In this document: positions 20,035-44,531 of the stretch, piece by piece
Layout: every line of letters starts with the position of its first letter
How positions within the stretch are numbered: the first letter of the stretch is position 1
DNA from: Gemmatimonadales bacterium
GTDB lineage: Bacteria; Gemmatimonadota; Gemmatimonadetes; Gemmatimonadales; JACORV01
Direction of reading: 5' to 3'
Assembly: GCA_030697825.1 (NCBI GenBank)
Contig: JAUYOW010000331.1
Location: forward strand, 1 to 46,801
DNA: 46,801 nucleotides
Position numbers and translations under genes: made by a program
Notes under the pieces: generated by a model
What the model saw: the letters and a program-made list of their open reading frames with translations, nothing else
What the model was told of the DNA's origin: nothing
Databases searched by the model: none

Positions 20035-20132
20035 GGAAGCTCGCCGGGCGACGCGGCTTGGCGCAACTGCCGGGCAGTCGCTGTTTCCACCTATCCACGT
20101 CGATACTCACGGATTCTTCAACAATGACGTGT

Positions 20133-20219
20133 TGATGTGTAGATGATGTGTTGACAGACGGCAGACCTAGCTAATAACTGACGCTATGATGTATTTATGA
20201 TGTCTCGATACTGACGCTA
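20133..20219. repeat. Helically phased direct repeats TGATGT (x4) and CTGACGCTA (x2)
   Basis: TGATGT occurs at 20133, 20144, 20187 and 20198, two pairs each spaced 11 bp, one helical turn. CTGACGCTA occurs at 20178-20186 and 20211-20219, 33 bp apart, three turns. The second TGATGT pair lies between the two CTGACGCTA copies. Phased repeats around a promoter suggest a binding site for a multimeric regulator; the protein is unknown. Confidence 0.6.
20151..20177 (+). promoter_or_regulatory. Possible promoter of the thioesterase-hydrolase fusion gene
   Basis: A perfect -35 word TTGACA lies at 20151-20156. The best -10 word is TAATAA at 20172-20177, with a short 15-bp spacer, so the pairing is not certain. 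If it is used, the leader before GTG 20366 is about 180 nt. Confidence 0.35.
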
Positions 20220-20365
20220 CTATTTGCAGTGGCGCGTACATCCGGAGGTGGAAACCTCGCGAACAAGACTCGGCCGCGACGCTCGCCAAGGTACCTTCGC
20301 TCAGCTACCTTTGGACCTTCAACGTCTTTTCTTCTTCGACCTTCAACTCTTCGACGTCCTATATC

Positions 20366-40246: not shown

Positions 40247-40262
40247 GGTTTCACGTGCAACA
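40247..40262 (+). promoter_or_regulatory. parS-like ParB-binding site 1
   Basis: GGTTTCACGTGCAACA matches the 16-bp bacterial parS consensus TGTTTCACGTGAAACA at 14 of 16 positions, with the central CACGTG intact. It lies 104 bp upstream of parA, between the two inverted minisatellite arrays. Confidence 0.8.
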
Positions 40263-40331: not shown

Positions 40332-40347
40332 TGTTCCACGTGCAACA
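40332..40347 (+). promoter_or_regulatory. parS-like ParB-binding site 2
   Basis: TGTTCCACGTGCAACA matches the parS consensus at 14 of 16 positions and shares CACGTGCAACACC with site 1. It ends 18 bp before the parA ATG, where bound ParB could affect parA expression. TAGATT, a possible -10, follows at 40351-40356. Confidence 0.85.
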
Positions 40348-42894: not shown

Positions 42895-43422
42895 ATGGGA
42901 ATCTTCGGGACGAAAGCGGCAGCCGACGCGGGAGCGATGGTAGACCACAGAGGGCCGGGCACCACGGGCGGACTGTCCATCATCGGCGCCGGAATGACGG
43001 TGCGCGGCGACATCGAGACGGCCGGCGTAGTGAAGGTGGAAGGGACGGTGGACGGCCACGTCAACGCCCAGCACCAGGTGCTCGTGGCGAAGGGCGGGGT
43101 GGTGCACGGTGACATCGAAACGCGCGAAGCCGTGATCGGCGGAACCGTGAACGGAGCGGTCCGGGCCGGGGACCGGGTGGAGATACAATCGGGGGCCGCG
43201 GTCAACGGGGACATCACGACCCGCAGGATCGCCGTAGCGGAGGGCGGGAGCCTAAACGGACAGATCAGAATGGGCGACCAGCCGGCGCTGGAACTCAAGG
43301 TCTCCAACGGCGCCAGGGTGGAGCCGCGACCGGTGCCACAACCCAGCCTTAGCAGGCCTTCGGTGCCAGTCGCGCGAGTCGCGGTACCGCCAAGAGCCAC
43401 GTTGCCAAGAACAGGACACTAG
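42895..43422 (+). CDS. Bactofilin cytoskeletal protein
   Basis: 175 residues. The core (about 25-125) is a right-handed beta-helix with repeated short turns: GGLSIIGAGMTVRGDIETAG, VEGTVDGHVNAQHQVLVAKG, GVVHGDIETREAVIGGTVNG, and so on. Bactofilins polymerise without nucleotide and scaffold cell-wall enzymes or ParABS components in other bacteria. The C-terminal 45 residues are Pro/Arg-rich and disordered, possibly a partner or membrane tether. AAGGG lies before ATG 42895. It is the last gene of the par operon. Confidence 0.95.
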   Translation: MGIFGTKAAADAGAMVDHRGPGTTGGLSIIGAGMTVRGDIETAGVVKVEGTVDGHVNAQHQVLVAKGGVVHGDIETREAVIGGTVNGAVRAGDRVEIQSGAAVNGDITTRRIAVAEGGSLNGQIRMGDQPALELKVSNGARVEPRPVPQPSLSRPSVPVARVAVPPRATLPRTGH

Positions 43423-43439
43423 CGTATCAACCGAAGGTT

Positions 43440-43467
43440 CAACATTGTGCGCGACGCGACCAACATT
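43440..43467. repeat. CAACATT words upstream of the BMP gene
   Basis: CAACATT occurs at 43440-43446 and 43461-43467, 21 bp apart (two helical turns). An inverted copy AATGTTG is at 43501-43507, and CAACATA at 43526-43532; the latter two are part of the perfect inverted repeat. The cluster looks like an operator region in the 89-bp gap after bactofilin. Confidence 0.5.
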
Positions 43468-43501: not shown

Positions 43502-43531
43502 ATGTTGACTCGTGGACAAACGAGTCAACAT
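43502..43531. promoter_or_regulatory. Perfect 12-bp inverted repeat across the BMP gene start codon
   Basis: ATGTTGACTCGT (43502-43513) and ACGAGTCAACAT (43520-43531) are perfect reverse complements with a 6-base GGACAA loop. GTG 43512 overlaps the end of the left arm. As RNA it would be a stable hairpin holding the start codon; as DNA it would suit a dimeric repressor. Confidence 0.85.
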
Positions 43532-44531
43532 AGTGTCATGTCGTTCACTGTTCGCTGTCGTGTCACTGCTCGTTCTAGGGTGCTCCAAGACGCGTAGCGA
43601 TTCCTTCAAGGTCGCCCTCCTCACCCCCGGTCCCATTTCGGACGCCGCCTGGAACGCCGCCGCCTACGAAGGCTTGGTTCGCATCCGAGACTCGCTGGGG
43701 GCGGAGATCAGCCATGTGGAGACGAAAACTCCGGCTGAGTTCGACGAGGCGTTCCGCGACTATGCGTCCCGCGGTTATCGGCTGGTGTTCGGTCACGGCT
43801 TCGAGTTCCAGGACGCGGCTGCCCGGGTCGGTGCGGATTACCCGAACACGATCTTCATCACCACGTCCGGCTCGACCGTCCGACCCAACGTCTCGCCTAT
43901 GGTGTTCCGGCTCGAGGAGGGGACGTACCTCGCCGGCATGCTTGCCGGATCGCTCACGCGGAGCGGCCGGCTAGGGTTCATAGGGGGGATCAAGCTCCCG
44001 CCGGTCGAAGGCACCTACCTCGGGTTCGTCGCTGGGGCGCGTGCCGTGCGCCCCGCCGTCACGGTCCTCCAGGCGTACCTCGGCAACTTCGAGGACGTAG
44101 CGGCGGCCAAGGAGAACGCGCTGGCGCAGATCCGCCGCGGCGCCGACATCATCCTGCACAACGCCGACGCGGCGTCCTTCGGCATCTTCCAGGCGGCACG
44201 CGAGTCGCCGGGAGTGCTGGCGCTCGGCGCCAACCGGGACCAGAATGACGTGGCGCCGGACGTGATAATCGCCTCGGCGACGCTCGACGTGCCGCAAGCC
44301 CTCCTGCTGGTGGCGCGCGAGGTGCGGGACGGGCGGTTCCGTCCCGGCGTGCGCTACTTCGGCATCAAGGATGGCGTAGTGGACCTGGCGGTAAACCCCG
44401 CGCTGAGCGGCCGAGTGACGCCGGAGCTGCGCGCCCGCATCGCCGCAGCCCGCGACTCGATCGTGGCGGGTACGCTAGCCGTCCCACGGGTCGAGTTCGT
44501 GCCGGATTCGGTTCCGGTGGTCGTGCGCTGA
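43512..44531 (+). CDS. BMP/PnrA-family substrate-binding lipoprotein
   Basis: 339 residues. The lipoprotein signal is basic MDKRVNIVSCR, hydrophobic SLFAVVSLLVLGC, with lipid-linked C24. The rest is the periplasmic-binding fold of basic membrane/PnrA proteins: FKVALLTPGPISDAAWNAAA, YRLVFGHGFEF, EGTYLAGMLAGSL, LGFIGGIKLPPVE. Family members bind purine nucleosides and deliver them to an ABC importer. GTG 43512 lies inside the hairpin; GTG 43533 is an in-frame alternative just beyond it and also gives a normal signal peptide. Nif3 and ABC ATPase genes follow with 1-bp gaps. Confidence 0.9.
   Translation: MDKRVNIVSCRSLFAVVSLLVLGCSKTRSDSFKVALLTPGPISDAAWNAAAYEGLVRIRDSLGAEISHVETKTPAEFDEAFRDYASRGYRLVFGHGFEFQDAAARVGADYPNTIFITTSGSTVRPNVSPMVFRLEEGTYLAGMLAGSLTRSGRLGFIGGIKLPPVEGTYLGFVAGARAVRPAVTVLQAYLGNFEDVAAAKENALAQIRRGADIILHNADAASFGIFQAARESPGVLALGANRDQNDVAPDVIIASATLDVPQALLLVAREVRDGRFRPGVRYFGIKDGVVDLAVNPALSGRVTPELRARIAAARDSIVAGTLAVPRVEFVPDSVPVVVR

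Follow-up and report, generated by a model that had tools for sequence, protein, structure and literature searches.

A perfect inverted repeat over the start of a BMP lipoprotein gene in a Gemmatimonadales genome, read as the probable core of an origin-proximal DnaA-box-like cluster

The window analysed here, a stretch of 46,801 nucleotides of DNA from a Gemmatimonadales bacterium, contains a perfect 12-6-12 inverted repeat, ATGTTGACTCGT-GGACAA-ACGAGTCAACAT, which overlaps the start of a BMP/PnrA-like lipoprotein gene and which, judged from comparison of sequences, on balance probably forms the core of a cluster of DnaA-box-like sites near the origin, lying over the leader and the first codons of that gene (Table 1). 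Among the relatives that have a name, most are Gemmatimonadota, which makes this phylum probable for the window as well. The comparison suggests a pair of predicted DnaA sites rather than a nucleoside-sensing RNA switch. The features of the DNA itself that had been described in a sequence-only reading were confirmed: arm 43502-43513 pairs perfectly with arm 43520-43531 across a loop of 6 bases, the GTG at 43512 begins within the end of the left arm, and two CAACATT words, the first of them at 43440, lie 21 bp apart upstream and share one core with the arms. No perfect short-loop inverted repeat in the window is longer than this one and no other reaches 11 bp, the next being of 10 bp. The repeat is single-copy in the 3.37 Mb assembly even when 3 mismatches are allowed, and a genome-wide search for TGTTGAC-N2..30-GTCAACA returned no occurrence besides it. 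A sigma-70 promoter within the repeat (TTGACT-18-CATAGT) was rejected for the BMP gene, as transcription would begin inside signal-peptide codons.

Table 1. Features of the BMP leader and its surroundings (window positions; G001 is a same-genus genome)
Feature	Position	Strand	Remarks
Inverted repeat	43502..43531	.	two ACGAGTCAACAT copies, inverted; perfect 12-6-12
Left-arm DnaA-box-like 9-mer GAGTCAACA	43503..43511	-	relatives' PWM rank 15-16 among all window 9-mers; GAATCAACA in G001
Loop-spanning DnaA-box-like 9-mer TTGTCCACG	43511..43519	-	8/9 to TTGTCCACA; not kept in G001
Right-arm DnaA-box-like 9-mer GAGTCAACA	43522..43530	+	codons V-N-I; place and frame of relatives' F-N-I / V-H-I boxes
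Upstream box-like 9-mer GGTTCAACA	43436..43444	+	G001 has TCTTCAACA at the aligned place
Weak box-like 9-mer GTATCAACC	43424..43432	+	PWM
Second CAACATT word	43461..43467	+	no DnaA-box score
BMP/PnrA-like lipoprotein gene	43512..44531	+	GTG 43512 or 43533 start; lipobox VLGC; Pfam PF02608, E 1.2e-53; ORF
Bactofilin gene	42895..43422	+	upstream of BMP gene

In the leader, a span of 116 bp contains 5 matches to the relatives' PWM where 0.95 would be expected (P 0.001), and the coincidence of box words there has a shuffle P of 0.0025 or less; the leader is among the two densest box clusters of the window by match count and third in a score-weighted ranking. Its sites are variants, with the loop box departing from TTATCCACA by 2 mismatches and the arms by 4, at positions 1, 2, 3 and 6, and with a score of 9.4 for the arms where the consensus reaches 16.5. 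The relatives' PWM is variable at positions 1-3 and 6, with no preference at position 3 and with C at 0.69 and A at 0.29 at position 6, a split conditioned on the core TC[CA]ACA with which the training words were gathered and which left position 3 free. Read on the minus strand, the left arm and the loop form TTGTCCACGAGTCAACAT, a tandem pair with an 8-bp core offset, and this layout matches the family's clusters upstream of RNase D, in which TCCAC and TCAAC alternate at the same positions; it is 15/18 identical to TTGTCCACATGTCAACAG of one of them (G003). The dnaA promoter region of ten f1/f2 genomes consists of TTGACT, a box and then a -10-like hexamer (the G013 dnaA record begins at the box itself), and the box is TTTTCCACA or TTATCCACA in most, TTTCCCACA in G002 and TTTTCAACA in G006. 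Since TCAACA stands in place of TCCACA in the G006 dnaA promoter and in the family clusters, it would appear to be a usable box variant. In Epsilonproteobacteria, the first three positions and the last one of the DnaA box vary from species to species (PMC5043019). It has to be noted that DnaA does not require a perfect 12-bp palindrome and that relatives lack it, which, together with the weakness of the arms as boxes, leaves some probability to a private repressor or to a lineage-specific accident.

Boxes of the strict type are concentrated in the leaders of related BMP genes. When k-mers were counted without bias in 103 BMP-start regions (from -200 to +60) and compared with those in 504 kb of flanking sequence of the same loci, the top enriched words included TTTCCACAG, TTGTCCACA, TTATCCACA, TTTTCAACA and TTTTCCACA, the last three of which, all DnaA boxes, are the most enriched; TT[ATG]TC[CA]ACA occurs 43 times in the 26.7 kb of BMP-start regions and 4 times in the 504 kb of flanks. 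TTNTC[CA]ACA boxes were found in 32 of the 64 leaders with par/bactofilin genes upstream and in 2 of the 35 leaders that lack them there (Fisher P = 5e-6); no strict box is present in the other half of the par-linked leaders, that of G013 among them. None occurred in 42 kb around the nif3, parB and bactofilin starts. In the orthologous leaders that carry them, the boxes sit where the arms sit in the window, and there the word falls within signal-peptide codons in two reading frames (16 of the [FL]ST type and 16 of the [VF][HN]I type), so that it is the DNA and not the peptide that is conserved; tandem boxes within these codons are 10 bp apart. The right arm of the window, read as GTC AAC ATA (V-N-I), is in the second of these frames and at the same place, which favours as the start GTG 43512, the earliest possible one of the BMP open frame, over the next in-frame GTG at 43533, which begins just past the right arm. 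The product had been read as probably nucleoside-binding, and the Pfam match upholds this as a Bmp/PnrA-like family assignment, which does not extend to the ligand. The gene belongs to the order parA (40366), parB (41190), M23 peptidase (42080), bactofilin, BMP gene, NIF3 and ABC ATPase; just 5' of parA lie two parS-like sites (40247-40262 and 40332-40347), with 2 mismatches to TGTTTCACGTGAAACA.

The repeat is known from two genomes only, that of the window (G000) and the same-genus G001, in which it reads ATGTTGATTCGT-GTACGA-ACGATTCAACAT. The start regions of about 100 relatives of the BMP gene (roughly 50-60% identical) contain no such hairpin or repeat, and the hairpins seen in some of them (e.g. 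L003, L041 and L042) are unrelated, lie further upstream and are probably terminators. The G001 copy is 26/30 identical (87%), against 45% for the upstream and 40% for the downstream flank, and it outlives its gene: the G001 BMP gene is an old internal-deletion pseudogene, the remaining fragment of which has 60% amino-acid identity, compared with 94% for NIF3 and 77% for bactofilin. The BMP gene of G004, from another genus, has also decayed, with ATATCAACATAGCGTCGCG kept, the GTG start now GCG and the left arm gone. The retention of the repeat in G001 and of ATATCAACATAGCGTCGCG in G004 beside decayed genes argues that the site seems to have been kept, for a time, independently of translation. 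Relatives that have lost the BMP gene entirely are missing the cluster too, so that the cluster is not essential. The two internal-deletion pseudogenes lie at L112:3376-4502 (G001) and L124:1200-1410 (G004), the ABC ATPase that follows the BMP gene is truncated in G001, and the transporter has probably been lost repeatedly in this family.

These comparisons bear on two other readings of the repeat. That it arose by chance, or through the recent inverted duplication of a single weak site, and serves no function at present, would fit its presence in two genomes only and the disappearance of the cluster with the gene, but is quite unlikely in view of the 87% identity held across the genus amid surroundings of 40-45% and of the shuffle result for the box words. 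The other reading, an operator of a dedicated dimeric repressor or activator specific to the BMP gene and perhaps responsive to a nucleoside, is consistent with a perfect dyad symmetry centred on the start and with the near-symmetric block conserved in G001. It is nevertheless unlikely: the single genomic copy implies no regulon, the annotated adjacent genes include no regulator, the site is kept where the BMP gene is dead, and this reading would leave unexplained why relatives carry DnaA boxes at that place. For the purine-responsive repressor site that had been proposed from the sequence, no support was obtained, as the genome holds no second palindrome, and hence no further copies upstream of other genes such as a global repressor of the purine type would have, and as the site persists beside a dead gene.

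Likewise weighed was control of translation by an RNA hairpin in which the start codon is sequestered, whether or not a ligand takes part. The predicted RNA fold of the 101-nt region has an energy of -32.2 kcal/mol (z = -2.16), which is better than chance and not extreme, and the G001 version is still able to form at -17.7 kcal/mol, so that the RNA model is weakened rather than eliminated by the mismatch that it carries. This mismatch is the sole arm difference between G000 and G001, a C-G pair having changed on both sides to T/T; the lone variable stem pair thus changed without compensation, and the change falls in both arms on box position 3, which is free in the PWM. The outer stem pairs are largely altered in G001, an Rfam search of the region gave no match up to E 1, the hairpin is found in none of the roughly 100 relatives and the repeat is retained beside a dead gene. 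All this makes the hairpin very unlikely and leaves the earlier proposal of a translation-blocking RNA switch unsupported. Of the alternative first put forward, an RNA switch or a DNA repressor site, what stands is that the repeat may be a DNA-binding site, and neither specific proposal was borne out.

The position of the predicted DnaA sites relative to the origin was assessed by cumulative GC skew. The minimum lies within dnaA in G005 (107,570) and at the dnaA 3' end in G017 (313,248) and G011 (324,145), and box clusters adjoin the latter two minima (313.5-313.6 kb and 324.1-324.3 kb, respectively); in G057 it lies 40 kb from the BMP gene. The BMP leader as oriC itself was rejected, not being at a skew minimum, a test that separates the two loci weakly in G017 and G011, where the skew is nearly flat from the BMP gene to dnaA. 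By GC skew, oriC is likely at dnaA, 18-20 kb from the BMP leader in some relatives, and in G017, G011 and G057 the BMP leader and the dnaA locus rank as the best two box clusters of the 180-200 kb origin-region stretch. A search of the literature found no paper devoted to the oriC of Gemmatimonas.

Further clusters were seen elsewhere. The window's own cumulative skew minimum is near 20-21 kb and not at the repeat, and at this minimum lies an AT-rich gap (20083-20260), flanked by the divergently oriented RNase D and thioesterase genes and containing tandem DnaA boxes as well as TTCAACA/TGTTGA words in inverted orientation; RNase D is preceded by related clusters in G002, G003, G005 and G006, and partly so in G004, and the gap is a candidate for oriC or for a second DnaA-box cluster. 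A dense DnaA-box cluster in which TTATCCACA and TATCAACA words alternate occurs at L200:2515-2630 (G013), 1.63 Mb from dnaA, and at L201:2519-2635 (G059); the two open frames that flank the G013 cluster have no Pfam match. In G057, tandem TTTTCCACA boxes 10 bp apart are found about 0.25 kb upstream of recA (L202:1892-1910).

In the model favoured here, DnaA would bind the inverted pair and the upstream box, and its binding would repress or modulate the BMP gene, as is thought to occur at the dnaA promoter; the cluster may in addition help to titrate DnaA near oriC. By further extension, nucleoside uptake could be linked to replication, much as DnaA controls nrdAB and gua in E. coli. A broader proposal, which we regard as rather doubtful, is that Gemmatimonadota maintain, some 20 kb away from an origin linked to dnaA, a second cluster of DnaA boxes that serves in titration, in reactivation or as a sub-origin; some families would have it at the BMP leader and another family upstream of RNase D, in which case the window would have both and the palindrome would be a lineage-specific form. 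If the DnaA reading is true, the repeat offers a specific and testable DnaA target for a phylum in which replication has seen little experimental study, and it would tie nucleoside uptake to the par locus and the origin region. It would also be a case of initiator sites that persist within signal-peptide codons, in alternative frames, with one site outlasting the decay of its gene.

Among known systems, the dif site of XerCD has a dyad of similar size (11-6-11), but was rejected for the repeat, which lies beside parAB and has no match to the XerC/XerD consensus, a proper dif-like site being present on another contig (G000:C49:63624). Purine or nucleoside riboswitches and operators of the PurR type share with the repeat a place in the leader of a nucleoside-transport-type gene and differ from it in that here there is no Rfam match, no regulon and no stem conserved in relatives. 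In E. coli, origin-proximal clusters and titration sites comprise datA, DARS and a high-density region near oriC (PMC12371093); the second box cluster 17-20 kb from the dnaA locus in G017, G011 and G057 resembles these, whereas the boxes here are few and tied to one gene leader, and the comparison covers the boxes. The DnaA-regulated promoters of E. coli include dnaA, nrdAB and gua, so that genes of nucleotide supply are known targets (PMC8203912). The present case departs from them in its target, a nucleoside-type substrate-binding lipoprotein, and in the form of the sites, which in relatives are boxes within signal-peptide codons and in the window a perfect palindrome of weak variants, but it agrees with them in having boxes around a gene promoter or start, as do the dnaA promoters of this group, with one box between -35 and -10.
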